Shown here piece by piece: positions 11,696 to 38,748 of a stretch of DNA of 64,000 nucleotides. The DNA lies in NCBI GenBank assembly GCA_944325635.1, contig CALVBD010000001.1, forward strand, positions 1 through 64,000, given 5' to 3'. The notes under the pieces were generated by a model that ran no database searches, was not told the origin of the DNA, and saw only the letters and a program-made list of their open reading frames with translations. Positions within the stretch are counted from its first letter, which is position 1; every line of letters begins with the position of its first letter. A program made the position numbers and the translations under genes. Source of the stretch: Candidatus Gastranaerophilales bacterium. GTDB taxonomy: Bacteria; Cyanobacteriota; Vampirovibrionia; Gastranaerophilales; Gastranaerophilaceae.

Positions 11696-12150
11696 CCCCC
11701 TCTCACCTTGCGGGAGAGGGGTAGGGGTGATGGGTAAGAAAAAGGTCCTTAGACACTAGGGCGCTAAGAAAAATTTTTACGTCATTCTGAGGGCGCAGCC
11801 CGAAAGAATCCAGCTTTTGGAATATGAAGAGTAACGAGTGAAGTGTGAAGGTACTAATTTTTGTTGAACCATTCACTACTCACCCTTCACCATTCACTTT
11901 TTAAAAAGGCTGGATTGCTTCGGCTGACGCCTCGCAATGACGTCACATCCCCCGCCCCTTGAGAGATACAAAGGGAACCGCTGAACTGTGCGAAGCGTAT
12001 GTCCCTGTAGGCCTTGTGCTGATGGTGTCCACAGGAAGGGTGAGGGTGTGAGAAAACCCTCCGGCGCTTCGCACCACCTCCCTTCTTGTAAGGGAGGCTT
12101 TAATTAATTCCCTCTCCCCTTGCGGGAGAGGGGTAGGGTGAGGGGTATAA
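11696..12150. repeat. Block of interspersed palindromic repeats, no gene
   Basis: Several repeat families found elsewhere in the window lie end to end. Family R1, an inverted repeat around CCTTGCGGGAGAGGGG, is at about 11696-11734 and 12110-12147. Family R2, around CCTCCGGCGCTTCGCACCAC and a following CTCCCTT...AAGGGAG hairpin, is at about 12055-12098. Family R3, ATTCACTACTCACC-like words joined to GGATTGCTTCGGC...CCTCGCAATGAC, is at about 11867-11945. Short ORFs here are repeat-derived and not supported as genes. Confidence 0.8.
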
Positions 12151-25816: not shown

Positions 25817-28660
25817 TTATAATTCTCTTAAATCTTTGTCAAAGAACCGTGTACGTTTGATATTAAACAATACATCCGGCGCAATAACGTTCATTAAAAC
25901 GTCAGCCCTTAATGCGGATATTGCATTATCTCCGGTACTCTGACCAGTTTTTAATACTATGAACAGACTTTTACCTTCATATCTGTGTGACATAATTGCC
26001 GGTTTGATGTCTGTTTTTTTGATTAAACCTTTTTTGTTTTTCTTTTCGATAAAAATTTCTTCGAAAGACAAAACTCTGTCTGTATTATACTTTAATTTGT
26101 CAAAATCGTAAAGATTTTCATTTACGGGAGTTATCTCATATTCCGCCCATTGTGCCGTAATATCAATAGCGGGAGCAGATTTATCAATTTTAACAATACT
26201 TAGTATTTCAGATTGCGGCGGGAGAACTTTTTCCAACTTTAGTTTAAGTTCTTCCGGTGTAATATTGTCTAAAAGTTCAATATCAACAAGTTCTGTGATA
26301 CTTTCTTCAAAAAGCGGTAGCGCAATCCCCAGTGATACTTTCATTGTCGGGTTAAACCCTTGAGTAAACGCGACATTCAAATCCGTACGCGCCAGAGCTT
26401 TCAAAAACGTATTTTGCCAATCCAGATGGGAGAAATATTTCAAAATTCCGGTTTTGGTAAGCTTAATTCGAAATTTCAGCGGGTGAAGAGTGATGGGTGA
26501 CGTGTGAAGTGATTCTTTTGCCACTTGCTTTATCTGGTCAGCCTCAACGTTATTGTGTATGTAAGCGAAGCTATCAGGCTTTTTGCTCTTCCCCTCGCCC
26601 CTTGCGGGAGAGGGGTAGGGGTGAGGGGTGCTTTTGGTTGAAAAGTCAGCCTCAACGTCATTATGAGTCTCAACAGAGGCTTTATATGGTTTTGCCATAA
26701 CTTTATGAGTTTTTAAATTCTTACAAACACCGCAGTTTACACATTTTGTCTGGCATGTCGGAACGATGTGAGACCCCTCACCCGTCGCTTCGCGACACCC
26801 TCTCCCGCAAGGGGCGAGGGCGTTTATGTATTCATTTTGGAACCATTCTTTATCAACACCGATGTTTATAAAATCCCACGGAAGCGGTTTTTCTAAGTCA
26901 TACTCTTTTTCAGCAAGTTCTGCAAGATTAATCCCGAGTTCTTCCGCGGTTTCATACCAGATATCTTTGTTAAAGTATTCGCCCCATGCATCAAGGTAGC
27001 AGCCTTTTTTATAAAGTGCTTCTATGTACTTGCAAAGGCTTTCATCGCCGCGCGTCAGGACGGCTTCCAGCTGTGAAACGTATTTTTCGTGGTAGTTAAT
27101 TTTTACACCCTTAATTGTCTTAACTTGTTCTTTTAAATATTTTATATGTTCTGTGACTTTGTCTAAATTCATTTGAGGGCACCACTGGAACGGGGTAAAA
27201 GGTTTTGGCACAAAAATCGATAATGTACAGGTTAAATCCATGCCGTGAGTTAACCCTTTTTCTTTTTTTATCAGGCGGCAGCGGTGGCGGATTTTTCTGA
27301 AAAGTTCTGCCATTTCGTCCATATCTTCCAAAGTTTCTGTCGGAAGTCCGCAGATAAAGTAAAACTTAATCCTCGACCAGCCGTTTTCGTAAAGCGTTGT
27401 TACGGCATTTAAAATCATCTCTTCTGTGATATTTTTCTTGATAACATCGCGAAGCCGCTGGGAACCTGCTTCCGGCGCAAGTGTCATTGTAGATTTTCTC
27501 ACACTCTGCACAAGATTTGCAAGTTCAAGGTTAAACCCGTCAATTCGCTGGCTTGGGAGTGATACGGAGATTTTTTTCTTATTAAAATCTATGGCAAGTT
27601 CTTTTATAACCTCATTTATGTTCGCATAATCATTTGAAGAAAGTGAAAGAAGCGAATATTCGTCATAACCGGTATTTTTAACGAGTTCTTTTGCAATTTT
27701 AATAATATCTTCAGCAGAACGCTCTCTTATAGGAAGGGTTACATGCCCCGGCTGGCAGAAACGGCACATTCTTCCGCAGCCTCTTCTGATTTCCACTACA
27801 GCTCTATCCTGAACCGATGAAGAAAACGGTATCGGGTAAGATTTCAGGGCTGTTTCGTAAGTTAATTGCGCAATCCGTTTGGTAACTGTGCCGCCCGTAA
27901 GCTTTGACCAGCGTCCGCTATTTTTGAACCCCTCACCCGTCACTTCGTGACTCCCTCTCCCGCAAGGGGCGAGTGAAATTTCACTGCGTCCGCATTGTTC
28001 TGTAAACCCTCCGGTACTTTGCACCACCTCCCTTACAATGGAGGTATTTGCTTTACACCCCTTGTAAAGGGGGGCAGGGGGGATTTTTTCGCATAATGCT
28101 TTAATTCTTTCTTCTCGCGGCATGCCTTTTGTTTTTTCTAAAATTTCGCATACCTCAATAATACTGTCCTCGCCGTCCCCTATCATAAATACGTCTATAA
28201 AATCCGCCAAAGGCAACGGGTTAAATGCACAGGGACCGCCTGCAATAATTATCGGGTCATCATCTGTGCGGTCAGCGTTTTTATACGGAATTTCCGCCAT
28301 CTCAAGCATTTTTAATACCGTAGGATACGCCATTTCGTATTGGAGCGAAAACCCGACCGCGTCAAAATCTTTTATCCTTCTTTTACTTTCCAGTCCGTAA
28401 AGCTCTTTTGGCTTAAAATCAGGTTCGGGTGCGTAGGCTCTATCCGCCATAAACCCTTCATGCCTGTTCACTAAATCATATAAAACCCTTACCCCGAGAT
28501 TACTTATGCCGATTTCATATTTATCAGGAAAACAAAATGCAAACCTTACTTTTGCGCTATCGAAATCCTTGTTATAAGATAAAAATTCTCCGCCTACGTA
28601 CTGGTAAGGTTTATTACATTTAAATAAGGCTTCGTGATAATCTCTAAAAAAACAATCCAT
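25817..28660 (-). CDS. B12-binding-like radical SAM protein fused to DUF2344, with repeat-derived inserts
   Basis: 947 residues. An N-terminal cobalamin-binding-like region is followed by the radical SAM motif RRGCGRMCRFCQPG (Cys 295, 299, 302), a TIM-barrel core (KFYFICGLPTET), a Cys cluster CQTKCVNCGVC near 636-646, and a C-terminal DUF2344 domain from about residue 728. This matches the TIGR03960/TIGR03936 proteins, whose substrate is unknown, often encoded next to RNase E/G as here. Three regions do not belong to the family and are read from interspersed repeats: about 195-250, 614-632 and 664-726. All stay in frame and avoid the motifs. It follows the 28676 gene by 15 bases. Confidence 0.88.
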   Translation of the reverse strand: MDCFFRDYHEALFKCNKPYQYVGGEFLSYNKDFDSAKVRFAFCFPDKYEIGISNLGVRVLYDLVNRHEGFMADRAYAPEPDFKPKELYGLESKRRIKDFDAVGFSLQYEMAYPTVLKMLEMAEIPYKNADRTDDDPIIIAGGPCAFNPLPLADFIDVFMIGDGEDSIIEVCEILEKTKGMPREERIKALCEKIPPAPLYKGCKANTSIVREVVQSTGGFTEQCGRSEISLAPCGRGSHEVTGEGFKNSGRWSKLTGGTVTKRIAQLTYETALKSYPIPFSSSVQDRAVVEIRRGCGRMCRFCQPGHVTLPIRERSAEDIIKIAKELVKNTGYDEYSLLSLSSNDYANINEVIKELAIDFNKKKISVSLPSQRIDGFNLELANLVQSVRKSTMTLAPEAGSQRLRDVIKKNITEEMILNAVTTLYENGWSRIKFYFICGLPTETLEDMDEMAELFRKIRHRCRLIKKEKGLTHGMDLTCTLSIFVPKPFTPFQWCPQMNLDKVTEHIKYLKEQVKTIKGVKINYHEKYVSQLEAVLTRGDESLCKYIEALYKKGCYLDAWGEYFNKDIWYETAEELGINLAELAEKEYDLEKPLPWDFINIGVDKEWFQNEYINALAPCGRGCREATGEGSHIVPTCQTKCVNCGVCKNLKTHKVMAKPYKASVETHNDVEADFSTKSTPHPYPSPARGEGKSKKPDSFAYIHNNVEADQIKQVAKESLHTSPITLHPLKFRIKLTKTGILKYFSHLDWQNTFLKALARTDLNVAFTQGFNPTMKVSLGIALPLFEESITELVDIELLDNITPEELKLKLEKVLPPQSEILSIVKIDKSAPAIDITAQWAEYEITPVNENLYDFDKLKYNTDRVLSFEEIFIEKKNKKGLIKKTDIKPAIMSHRYEGKSLFIVLKTGQSTGDNAISALRADVLMNVIAPDVLFNIKRTRFFDKDLREL
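26479..26664. repeat. Repeat insertions inside the radical SAM gene (linker site)
   Basis: About 26588-26629 is an R1 palindrome (CCTTGCGGGAGAGGGG core), read in frame as HPYPSPARGEG. About 26479-26516 holds GTGAA-type words of family R3. An 18-base direct repeat with one mismatch, GTCAGCCTCAACGTTATT / GTCAGCCTCAACGTCATT, flanks the R1 copy (about 26538 and 26647) and suggests a duplication at insertion. Confidence 0.8.
26773..26820. repeat. Repeat insertion inside the radical SAM gene (R1, opposite orientation)
   Basis: Starts ACCCCTCACCCGTCGCTTCG and ends CTCCCGCAAGGGGCGAGGG. It is read on the minus strand as LAPCGRGCREATGEG. It is nearly the same as the copy at 27928-27973 and lies in the opposite orientation to the copy at 26588-26629. 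Confidence 0.85.
27910..28085. repeat. Composite repeat insertion inside the radical SAM gene (R1 plus R2)
   Basis: An R1 copy (about 27928-27973) is joined to an R2 copy (about 28003-28085, AAACCCTCCGGTACTTTGCA... plus a CCCCTTGTAAAGGGG hairpin). Together they add about 55 codons (residues 195-250) without a stop, including LAPCGRGSHEVTGEG. Confidence 0.85.
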
Positions 28661-29182: not shown

Positions 29183-30131
29183 ATGTGTAGTTCAGCTTTG
29201 CAGTTTATGGTTGATGTTATAAGAGGGAAAAGATCTATTATTGATCCTAATAAGCATATTCCAAGACTTGTTATAGGTAAAAAGTTTGTTTATGAGGCTG
29301 AAGATGCCTGTGAAGTTGTTAAAAATCATATTCTGTCGGGTAAGCCGCGGATGATATGCCGGTTTGGCACGCTTGAACTTGATACTATTCGTATGATGCT
29401 CAATTCTAAAAACGGGAATCCGAAATATGACAGGTGGCATAAGGATTGGTTTACGAATACTGCGGGATTTTTCCCTGTTGATGACTATAATATGACGCGT
29501 TTTGCCTGTGAACATCTGGATTTACTTAAAGATGTTGATATAATGAGTTGCCGCTCTGACAGATATGAAATAAAAATTATTGAAGAATACCTCCAGCATG
29601 CAGATTTGATTAATATCAACGCAATATCTTTCCCTTTTTTGTATAAAAATCCTTGGTCTGCAGCGTTAAAAGGTAAAAAGGTGCTAGTTATACATCCTTT
29701 TGAAGAAACTATAATAAAACAATATGAAAAACGTGAAAAATTATTTAAAAATCCGGAGGTTTTACCGGAATTTGACTTACTTACATATAAGCCGGTTCAG
29801 GGTATCGGGCGGGCAAAAAATAAACTAAAATATAAAACCTGGTTTGAGGCGCTGGCTAAAATGAAAGAAGATATTAAAAATATCGATTTTGATGTTGCAT
29901 TGATAGGTGCCGGAGCATATGGAATATTTCTGGCTCAATTTGTGAAAAGTCTTGGCAGGCAAGCAATTCACGGGGGGGGGGGCGACGCAACTCCTCTTTG
30001 GAATAAAGGGTTCCAGGTGGGATCGTATGCTTGAAGGATCTTTCTATAATGAACACTGGACAAGACCGTCAAAGGATGAAACACCTGAAGGTGTTGAGCT
30101 TTTTGAAAGAGGCACTATGGCTTACTGGTAG
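29183..30131 (+). pseudogene. GT-D-like glycosyltransferase-type protein, out of frame at an 11-G tract (copy 1)
   Basis: ATG at 29183 (GGGAG 7 bases upstream) opens a frame that runs through a run of 11 G (29972-29982) and then ends early at 30034. With 10 G the frame would continue to TAG at 30129-30131, giving 315 residues whose C-terminus (GSRWDRMLEGSFYNEHW) matches the intact neighbour. The N-terminal ICRFGTLELDT resembles the RFGDGE-type substrate motif of GT-D (DUF1792) proteins; IGAGAYGIFLAQFVK and IHGGG-ATQLLFGIKG are also shared. The tract encodes the conserved Gly run. Length differences at this tract would switch the gene on or off, so it is better seen as phase-off than dead. The substrate is unknown, likely a surface polysaccharide. 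Confidence 0.75.
29972..29982 (+). repeat. Poly-G tract, 11 bases
   Basis: A homopolymer of 11 G in an AT-rich region, beginning at codon 264 of copy 1. It causes the frame change that truncates the protein. Tracts of this length are prone to slipped-strand changes; an assembly error cannot be excluded. Confidence 0.9.
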
Positions 30132-30170: not shown

Positions 30171-31100
30171 ATGGCAAGAATTAAAGCTGTTCAAAAACTA
30201 ATAAATATTCTTAGAGGACGAGAAGATTCACAGTTAGTCAAATCCTATTATGGTGATAAGTTTATTTATTTACATGAAGATTCGCAGGATTTGATTTATG
30301 AAAAGTTAGTATCAGGGGAGCCAAGTTTAATTTGCCGCTTTGGCAGTACTGAATTAAATACCGTAAGACAATTTTTTGAACATAAAAACAGAAAATCTCA
30401 CTACAGTAAAAATCAACGTTACATAATGTCAACCCTTTCCGGATTTTTCCCGACTGATGATTATAATTTGAATAAGTTTGCCTGTGAGATGATATCAATT
30501 GCAAGAGATATTGATATTCTTGGATGCTGGTTCAGACCGTTTGAAGAAGAAATGTGTAGAAGATATCTTAAAGAATCGGCTAAGCTTGTGCACTTAAATT
30601 CAATTTGTCCTATTTGGTTTAAGCGTCCGTGGTCAAGAGCATTGAACGGTAAAAAAGTTCTTGTCATCCATCCGTTTGAAAAATCTATTCAAGAACAGTA
30701 TAAAAAACGGGAAAAACTGTTTGAAAATCAAGATACTCTGCCGGACTTTGAACTTATTACAATGAAACCGGTGCAGAGTCTGGCAGATAACAAGGCTGAT
30801 TTACCTTATGAAACCTGGTTTGACGCATTAAATGATATGAAATCAAAGATAAAAGAAATTGATTTTGATATAGCTATAATCGGTGCCGGAGCGTATGGAA
30901 TATTTCTGGCTCAATTTGTAAAAACCCTTGGCAGGCAAGCAATTCACGGGGGGGGGGCAACGCAACTTCTCTTTGGAATAAAGGGTTCACGCTGGGATAG
31001 TGTGCTTAATGATTCTTTTTACAATGAATACTGGATTCGACCTGATGTAAGTGAACGACCGAAAGGTGCCGAGAAAGTTGAAGGCGCCTGTTACTGGTAA
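30171..31100 (+). CDS. GT-D-like glycosyltransferase-type protein, in frame at a 10-G tract (copy 2)
   Basis: 309 residues from ATG at 30171, preceded by AGGAGG at ideal distance; the frame extends upstream but without support. Homologous to the preceding gene from end to end: ICRFGSTELNTVRQF, WSRALNGKKVLVIHPF, IIGAGAYGIFLAQFVK, IHGGGATQLLFGIKGSRWD and a C-terminal tryptophan. The 10-G tract encodes Gly 260-262 and keeps the frame. The DUF1792/GT-D relationship is from family memory and moderate. A tandem duplication with two separate switches fits surface-antigen variation. Confidence 0.78.
   Translation: MARIKAVQKLINILRGREDSQLVKSYYGDKFIYLHEDSQDLIYEKLVSGEPSLICRFGSTELNTVRQFFEHKNRKSHYSKNQRYIMSTLSGFFPTDDYNLNKFACEMISIARDIDILGCWFRPFEEEMCRRYLKESAKLVHLNSICPIWFKRPWSRALNGKKVLVIHPFEKSIQEQYKKREKLFENQDTLPDFELITMKPVQSLADNKADLPYETWFDALNDMKSKIKEIDFDIAIIGAGAYGIFLAQFVKTLGRQAIHGGGATQLLFGIKGSRWDSVLNDSFYNEYWIRPDVSERPKGAEKVEGACYW
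30948..30957 (+). repeat. Poly-G tract, 10 bases
   Basis: Ten G at the same alignment position as the 11-G tract of copy 1. One base more or fewer would truncate the product. Confidence 0.9.
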
Positions 31101-37079: not shown

Positions 37080-38540
37080 TAAAAAATTTTTCTCTCCTTC
37101 ACCAGTGACTACTCATGCACTTTCCTTTTCTCTTCCCCTAGAGGGAGGCATACGGCGTCAGATGATGATTAACAGTCATTGCGAGGCGAAACCGAAGCAA
37201 TCCAGCCTTTTTTAGTGAGTGGTGAATAGTGAGTAGTGAATAGTTCAACAATAATTAGTCCCCTCACGCTTCACTTATAAAAGATTGATTTTTTTGTGCT
37301 TCGCTCTCAGAGTGATGTAAAATTACTCTTCGTGCCTTTGTATCTTTGGAACTTCTCTTTTACCCCTCACCCGAATTTCTAAGCTCACCTTGGTTCGCTA
37401 AGAAATTCTACCCTCTCCCTCAAGGGGCGAGGGAGGAAGTCAAAGCCATCCCTTACAAGAGAGGCAAAACAAATATCCAATATCCTAAAACATTTCCATA
37501 TTCGTCCCAGAGTGTAAGAGCAGTCAACGAATTCCCGCTCGCGAAAAACGCTTTTTTATCCCTCTCCCCTTGAGGGAGAGGGTAGGGGTGAGGGGTTACC
37601 GTAAACCCTCCGCCGCTGCGCGCCACTTCCTGCTTGGGTTGCTCGCGCTAAACGGGTCTGCAACGCCCTTGCCTTCGTCCTTCCCTCTAGCCAAACAAAT
37701 ATTCTGAGATTTCACCATATTCGTTCAAGAGTATAAAAGCCGCCTACGACTTTCCGTTCGCCAAAAACGTTTTTTATCCCTCTCCCCTTGAGGGAGAGGG
37801 CAGGGTGAGGGGTTATAAACCCTCCGGTCACTGCGCGTTACCTCCTGCTAGGTTGCTCGCGCAAAACGGCACCGCTCCACCTCTATCGCCGTCACCTGCG
37901 CACCGCCGATTAGGTGTCGACTCTCACTTCGTTCGTGCCTCTGCTCATTCGGTACGTCTTACATAAATCCAAAAAGCAATTACTTTTAAAACGCTAAAAC
38001 AAAAAACTTCAACATCATTCAATACTGAGAAAAGTGCATTTCCCCTACTCGTTCCATAGTGTAAAGGCAGTCTACGACTTCCCGCTCGCGTAAAACTGTA
38101 CCGCTCCAATACTATCGCCGCCGCCTGCGCGCCGCCGATTCAGGTGTCGTCTCTCACTTCGTTCGTGCCTCTGCTCATTCGGTACATCTTACATAAACCT
38201 AAAAAACAGTTATTGAAAAAACGCTAAAACAAAAAGCTTCAACATTATTCAAACCTGAAAAAAGTGCCATCATCATAATCATTCCGAAGTATAAGTGCAG
38301 TCTACGACTTCCCGCTCGCGAAAAACGGCACCGCTCCACCTCTATCGCCGTCGCCTGCGCGTCGCCGATTAGGTGTCGACTCTCACTTCGTTCGTGCCTC
38401 TGCTCTTTCTGTACGTCTTACATAAACCTAAAAAACAGTTACTTTAAAAACGCTAAAACAAAAACTTCAACATCATTCAAAACTATAAAAAGTGCCATCA
38501 CCATACCCATCCCAGAGTATAAGAGCAGTCTACGACTGCC
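37080..38540. repeat. Gene-free block: interspersed repeats, then a tandem array of ~230 bp units
   Basis: No coding sequence found. The left part holds R3 (about 37172-37245), R1 (37361-37432, 37559-37598, 37778-37815) and R2 (about 37597 and 37818) copies. From about 37860 three units of 229-230 bp follow, marked by CCGCTCC at 37872, 38101 and 38331. Each has a GC-rich part (CCGATTAGGTGTCGACTCTC and CTTCGTTCGTGCCTCTGCTC), an AT-rich part (ACGCTAAAACAAAAA) and a spacer with TAAGAGCAGTCTACGACTTC. Partial copies of this last word occur near 37507 and 38520. Confidence 0.8.
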
Positions 38541-38737
38541 AAAAAAAAACTCTATCTTTTGATAGAGCCTTGGAATTCTTTTTGTAATTCCTCGTGTGTG
38601 TAGAAGGTTAGTGTGTAGTAGGTAGTGTAGTTAGTAAGTGTGTGTTTTATGTCTCGTGTTTATTTAATCGATATTGTTTACATATTAATAAAGTATTTTT
38701 GGAATATATAATTGCTATATCAACATTATTTCTTTAC
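38541..38737 (-). ncRNA. Candidate small RNA with terminator, copy 2
   Basis: Same element as 36875-37072. The hairpin here is CTCTATC-aaaa-GATAGAG followed by ten T on the minus strand, a strong terminator. It lies just past the mannosidase stop, so it may only be that gene's 3' end, duplicated elsewhere. Confidence 0.45.
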
Positions 38738-38748
38738 ACTTCTTAACA

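Follow-up and report, generated by a model that had tools for sequence, protein, structure and literature searches.

The palindromic elements of Rickettsia (RPE) lie in frame in many unrelated conserved genes (Ogata 2000, 2002, as cited in PMC2229807 and PMC10969869), and an RPE-bearing gmk of R. conorii is reported to be translated and active (PMC2229807). Their length is given as about 105–150 bp, those examined end in CGTC (PMC3733652), and a review describes the frequency of in-frame palindromic repeats in Rickettsia as unusually high (PMC10969869). Many genes contain translated GTAG/CGTC REPs in Opitutus, Rickettsia, and others; genes for DNA repair and tRNA genes are overrepresented among them, and in two Xanthomonas recB genes REPs occupy about the same site (PMC3733652). 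Small mobile sequences read as protein are also found among the MITEs in ORFs of enterobacteria and Coxiella (PMC2759123, PMC5896051). Untranslated, bypassed palindromes are described for Magnusiomyces yeast mitochondria (as cited in PMC6649704). Finally, the BoxC/PIT/TM repeat is built from the blocks CCCTC(T/G)CCC, GGGAGAGGG, and GGGTGAGGG; E. coli MG1655 has 23 copies, cyanobacteria have many, and in E. coli the repeat is described as lying invariably between genes (PMC4666352).

The window analyzed here is a stretch of 64,000 nucleotides, bases 1–64000 of contig 1 in the MAG of a Candidatus Gastranaerophilales bacterium (G000; 2.0 Mb, 13 contigs, 99.75% complete). Positions 25817–28660(-) hold an intact ORF of 947 aa, a radical SAM gene (rSAM) that fuses TIGR03960 and TIGR03936/DUF2344. 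Both models score above their curated cut-offs within this one ORF (609.7 bits against 462.3 for TIGR03960 and 145.8 bits against 71.9 for TIGR03936/DUF2344). The radical SAM cysteines C295, C299, and C302 are present and invariant in 58 orthologues, in agreement with a preliminary description of this DNA, which had the FeS cysteines intact. An Rfam scan of the gene returned no family and one sub-threshold miRNA match, attributable to chance. In G008, a genome of the same genus rated 99% complete, the TIGR03960 gene is apparently absent.

Elsewhere in the window, 51-nt tandem repeats occupy positions 1–297, and two tandem gene copies, about 82% identical, lie at 29831–30067 and 30807–31042, each with a run of about ten G (29973 and 30948) that is a possible phase-variation tract.

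Alignment of the rSAM protein with 80 fetched orthologues sets the limits of three inserts, at aa 193–245, about 616–623 (a net gain of 8 aa), and 680–720; nearly all of the 80 are without them. The preliminary description had placed R1/R2/R3-type repeats, in both orientations, at about 26479–26664, 26773–26820, and 27910–28085. They are present at these positions, with R1 copies at 26590–26630(-), 26772–26822(+), and 27927–27977(+). Three places are indeed occupied, but the gene contains at least five repeat units rather than three because sites 1 and 3 are composite.

Insert 1 (53 aa; 27926–28084(-)) lies between the N-terminal domain and the radical SAM domain and is a composite of R7, R3, and R1. 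Its BoxC/PIT-type R1 copy (27927–27977(+)) is read by the gene as LAPCGRGSHEVTGEG and is recovered by a covariance model with E 1.4e-13. An R3-type triplex repeat at about 28004–28055(+), with CCTCCATTGTAAGGGAGG ... CGGAGGGTTT on the gene strand, is partly common to the genomes G002 and G012, and an R7-type triplex repeat occupies 28056–28084(+) (CCCCTTGTAAAGGGGGGCAGGGGGGAT). At site 2, the R1 copy (26772–26822(+)) is read as APCGRGCREATGEG. Insert 3 (26501–26623(-)) is located in the linker preceding DUF2344. Its R1 copy, a short-linker form found with the covariance model (26590–26630(-)), is read as TPHPYPSPARGEG and is flanked by a 21-nt direct repeat (26537–26557 and 26645–26665, 19 of 21 positions identical), a single case that may reflect either duplication of the target or a tandem duplication of local origin. 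Adjoining this insert, an R2-like repeat at about 26479–26512 is read as LHTSPITLHP and has a 26-nt local match to the 11.8-kb block, equalled in quality by 0 of 500 shuffles. Among the junction-spanning peptides predicted for the rSAM protein is GCREATGEGSHIVPTCQTK.

Two gene-free blocks of the window also carry these repeats. The first (11696–12147) has R1 at 11696–11736 and 12108–12147 and R3 at 12056–12097; the second (37361–37814) has R1 at 37361–37435, with a long hairpin linker, and at 37558–37597 and 37776–37814. A direct repeat array with a unit of about 230 nt (37855–38746) directly adjoins the latter, R1-rich block.

Judged by its sequence, R1 is the known BoxC/PIT/TM intrastrand triplex repeat, usually with an enlarged hairpin linker. 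It has the form TACCCCTCACCC - V - CCCTCTCCC(G/T)CAAGGGG(A/C)GAGGG, with a length of 40–75 nt and the conserved ends TACCCCTCACCC and GAGGG, and reads CCCTC(T/G)CCC-loop-GGGAGAGGG-linker-GGGTGAGGG on the other strand. The BoxC/PIT blocks (C-rich arm, complementary G-rich arm, and GGGTGAGGG as third block) are nearly invariant in a 24-copy alignment. Over about 38 nt, copies from E. coli and Azospirillum have the same sequence as the short form, which has a match in 5375 of 5426 E. coli genomes. Most copies differ from BoxC/PIT in the second loop, which is 2–3 nt in the described repeat (PMC4666352); here the third strand is mostly joined through a hairpin linker, and V measures 2–5 nt in 13, 12–14 nt in 21, and 33–42 nt in 11 of 45 full copies. 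Since most copies are thus linker variants, we name the set BoxC/PIT-type. A further difference is location, with 19 copies here in coding sequence, whereas those of E. coli are always intergenic (PMC4666352).

To describe the wider class, we used a scanner that accepts a perfect pyrimidine/purine hairpin followed on its 3′ side by a mirrored purine block, with A and T interchangeable. Applied to 311 kb of fetched loci, it returned 91 hits, and ten Markov controls returned none. The 91 cases with the purine block on the 3′ side compare with 10 on the 5′ side. Besides R1, the hits comprise R3 (AGGGAGG ... GGAGGGT), R4 (GGGAGGA ... AGGAGGG), R6 (GGGAGGG ... GGGTGGG), and R7 (AAGGGGG ... GGGGGAT), the counts of which are biased to R1 loci, as the sample consists of R1-bearing stretches. 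Between families the third block covaries with the hairpin, as would be expected under a triplex constraint. From mirror symmetry, the one property tested, we infer that these repeats may fold as triplexes.

Like RPE, R1 has entered numerous unrelated protein genes without disturbing the frame, here with 19 copies in 15 genes. It is set apart from RPE by size (40–75 nt versus 105–150 bp) and by having no CGTC end tag and, unlike RPE, it is GC-rich in an AT-rich host, follows the triplex rule, and is spread over distant phyla. The resemblance to the protein-coding palindromic elements of Rickettsia that had been proposed for this locus therefore stands as a likeness, but neither tag nor size makes these BoxC/PIT-type repeats RPE. 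With the GTAG/CGTC REPs, R1 shares an occurrence in repair and tRNA genes (Mfd, UvrD-like, PD-(D/E)XK nuclease, ArgS, LeuS, and QueA). However, its palindrome ends, when tested, have no unpaired GTAG/CGTC tetranucleotide, the mark of a different repeat class, and, unlike in the REPs, three sites are filled in one gene and one loop is used by unrelated families in two genes. The MITEs of enterobacteria and Coxiella are larger and often lie at gene ends or in hypothetical genes, not mid-gene in many essential enzymes (PMC2759123, PMC5896051). In the open-access literature we found no paper on such inserts in Melainabacteria. In-frame palindromic repeats are thus known; new, as far as we found, are this repeat class in coding sequence, the lineage, the density per gene, and the reuse of loops.

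The missing tag also bears on what moves R1. Mobilization as a REP by a RAYT/Y1 transposase, an alternative that concerns the mover only, would fit the presence in the same genome of one Y1/RAYT-like protein flanked by a GTAG-type palindrome. That palindrome, however, is a different repeat from R1, which has neither a GTAG nor a CGTC tag. The gene occurs in G000, G003, G006, and G012 but was not found in G002 and G004, which have 38 and 33 R1 copies, respectively. With no clean co-occurrence with R1, we consider this mover unlikely. At the transposase locus itself (L239:137–160 and 451–473; G000:C8), the GTAG palindrome (GTAGGTTGGGGTTTCTACCCCAAC) precedes the Y1/RAYT-like gene and is also present in frame inside it (AVGVETPTYGYVN).

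All three rSAM inserts are common to two close species, L061 (G006) and L072 (G004); the genomes compared are MAGs, and the inserts nonetheless recur in these separate assemblies. In L072 the gene is interrupted by a contig end in site 3 and continues in L044. More distant members of the genus are without the inserts (e.g., KALCEGENSGRW at site 1), and relatives with empty sites, which alignment with insert-free homologues had been suggested to reveal for rSAM, are found for rSAM, DXR, and ArgS.

An AlphaFold model of the rSAM protein (58 sequences) has a mean pLDDT of 71.9. Residues 194–245, 619–628, and 671–724 are largely below pLDDT 50, mostly coil, and each flanked by ordered elements, although the radical SAM core is also partly low-scoring in this model, so that low pLDDT alone is not specific to the inserts. 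The prediction of disordered inter-domain loops at all three sites agrees with the placement proposed earlier. A Foldseek search with the model retrieves B12/radical SAM enzymes (MgmA 9ccb, OxsB, and AprD4) and TruA/Pus folds, matches that have no bearing on the inserts.

Comparison of the window gene with L061 gives a dN/dS of 0.023 for 814 core codons and 0.60 for 131 insert codons, and comparison with L072 gives 0.036 and 0.67, the insert values being rough because sites are few and the repeat alignment inside the inserts is uncertain. By domain, the values against L061 are 0.009 (N-terminal), 0.021 (radical SAM), and 0.018 (DUF2344). By these codon comparisons, the rSAM core is under strong purifying selection, including the domain downstream of all inserts. 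The inserts themselves, at about 0.6, are not fully free and may be subject to some constraint or have a function. Between G000 and G006 the insert indels are +45, -3, and -3 nt, all of which keep the frame; together with the open 947-aa ORF, they bear out the earlier claim of in-frame insertion without stops.

These data weigh on the possibility that rSAM is a decaying pseudogene, open by chance, as three inserts in one gene might suggest. Such decay is extremely improbable given the dN/dS of each large domain (about 0.02, also for the one that follows all three inserts), the invariant FeS cysteines, and a reading frame that is open, with no stops, in three species. A broken gene had been named as an outcome that would overturn the finding, and the constraint on DUF2344 speaks against it. 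Lying downstream of all three inserts, DUF2344 would be made only by in-frame read-through, unless the inserts are skipped.

The rSAM gene is one of many hosts. In the 2.0-Mb genome, the R1 core pattern has 57 matches and its reversed control none; for the two-block pattern, the corresponding numbers are 56 and 0. The covariance model, taken to E of about 0.03 with rough E-values, finds about 111 copies. Degenerate in-gene copies (NagA, Mfd, and YmdB-like) escape exact patterns but are recovered with the covariance model and a protein search, the latter contributing the NagA copy. At least 19 copies are in frame in 15 real genes, for rSAM (three copies), RsmE, a CCG-domain Fe-S protein (two), an oligopeptide-binding protein (at its C-terminal end), a UvrD-like helicase, NIF3, LeuS, ArgS, QueA, Mfd (two, in opposite orientations), a PD-(D/E)XK nuclease, a polyprenyl synthetase (IspA), DXR, a NagA-like protein, and a YmdB-like phosphoesterase. 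Seven of these identities were established by Pfam and those of ArgS, DXR, QueA, and LeuS by PDB matches, while the Mfd, UvrD-like, NagA-like, YmdB-like, and oligopeptide-binding assignments are our own reading and putative. Three repeats in one gene had been called striking; the gene with three sites stands, and more striking are these copies in 15 genes and the reuse of loops described below.

In QueA, the insert falls precisely at the junction of two blocks that align to PDB 1yy3. LeuS shows a net gain of only 6 aa against the PDB, and here the repeat may stand in for a portion of the original loop. Of the other 92 R1 copies, one has long same-strand ORFs abutting both sides, the pattern of a broken gene, in a search that detects fragments of 90 aa or more. 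Several ORFs of about 100–154 aa that are mostly repeat (C8:49371, C2:260793, and C12:6376) were rejected as spurious. In the mfd-like gene (G000:C3:61215–61363), two R1 copies stand in opposite orientation 50 nt apart, the pairing described for E. coli BoxC pairs (PMC4666352).

The coding copies are oriented 9 in the direction of R1 and 10 against it, and the frames of non-genic copies are open in 66% of cases on average. An alternative reading is that the inserts are removed or skipped, by RNA splicing or translational bypassing, leaving a mature protein without them. The inserts are strongly structured GC-rich hairpins, and the bypassed palindromes of a yeast mitochondrion (cited in PMC6649704) offer a precedent. 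A skipped insert, however, need not keep frame or avoid stops, and those of rSAM, DXR, ArgS, and QueA do both; the insert indels are multiples of three. Finding 19 of 19 copies open is unlikely at 66% open frames, though the 19 were found by being open, and the use of both orientations would not be allowed by a sequence-specific splicing signal. Skipping is, in our assessment, very improbable.

Across 241 genomes of the order, the R1 two-block pattern is present in 95, representing 24 of 50 genera, at 0–84 copies per genome, and the control pattern occurs once. This patchy distribution suggests bursts or transfer of the repeat.

The same loops have been filled by different repeats. In 81 rSAM proteins, every internal insert of at least 15 residues is located at one of four places. 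Site 1 holds R7+R3+R1 in the G000/G004 lineage, R4 in place of the R3 middle in G006, R3 alone in G012, none in its sister G007 (support 100), and an R3 remnant in G002. In L071, L081, L083, L088, and L090, it holds an unrelated hairpin repeat, R5, which is dispersed in each genome (7–16 hits) and occurs also at site 2 in four of the five. The fourth place is represented by a 30-aa insert at L134:3000–3089 (TNSKISDFCLNGANRNFALSQRERDFEQSP) that looks repeat-derived.

A comparable pattern is observed in ArgS. The loop is short and repeat-free in G001, G005, G009, and G011, carries R1 in G000, G002, G007, G008, and G012, and carries a third repeat, R8 (CHPELVSGS), in G004, G006, and G010. R8 is dispersed at 9–52 copies in five genomes of the genus. 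The ArgS states are discordant with the rSAM gene tree, which implies gene exchange or independent events. The DXR site is empty in seven genomes and has R1 in four. As far as we found, this repeated occupation of individual loops by distinct repeat families is the most novel point.

Recurrent occupation of the same loops in two genes, together with an insert dN/dS below 1, could mean that the repeat-encoded loops are adaptive, through regulation, interaction, or control of mRNA or DNA structure, and are refilled for that reason. Against this, peptides that share a site have unrelated sequences and derive from different repeats and frames, the rate of evolution is about 20-fold higher in the inserts than in the core, an insert is missing from many close relatives, and insertion takes place in unrelated enzymes. 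We regard adaptation as distinctly unlikely. Somewhat less doubtful, though still improbable, is an alternative in which insertion, rather than being random and filtered afterwards, would be structure-driven, with different triplex-type or hairpin repeats copied into and exchanged at the same spots, for example by template switching at stalled forks, with no dedicated transposase. If so, the loops of essential enzymes would be repeat-exchange sites that generate variation in protein length.

Very probably, the repeats are selfish or passive passengers tolerated in protein loops. According to this model, BoxC/PIT triplex-class repeats (R1, R3, R4, and R7) and ordinary hairpin repeats would spread through Gastranaerophilales genomes, settling mostly between genes and sometimes inside them. 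A genic copy would persist only with an open, in-frame reading and in a loop able to accommodate additional residues. The repeat would then be translated as a disordered loop rich in Pro, Gly, Arg, and Glu, while the host enzyme stays functional; both translation of the full-length protein and neutrality of the peptides are what we infer. In rSAM, the three inter-domain loops would be permissive sites, filled repeatedly by different repeats in different lineages.

So far, protein-coding palindromes have mostly been regarded as peculiar to Rickettsia, Wolbachia, and certain REP-rich genomes. The same result is now seen in an uncultured gut lineage near the cyanobacteria, with a repeat of the BoxC/PIT class known from E. 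coli and many phyla. The patchy distribution across the order, from 0 to about 84 copies, makes the movement of BoxC testable by comparative genomics. When LAPCGRG, HPLPQGAR, CHPELVSGS, or similar peptides appear in protein databases, they can be genuine parts of proteins, and the loops of ArgS, LeuS, DXR, QueA, Mfd, and a radical SAM enzyme constitute a natural experiment in the tolerance of 10–50 foreign residues.
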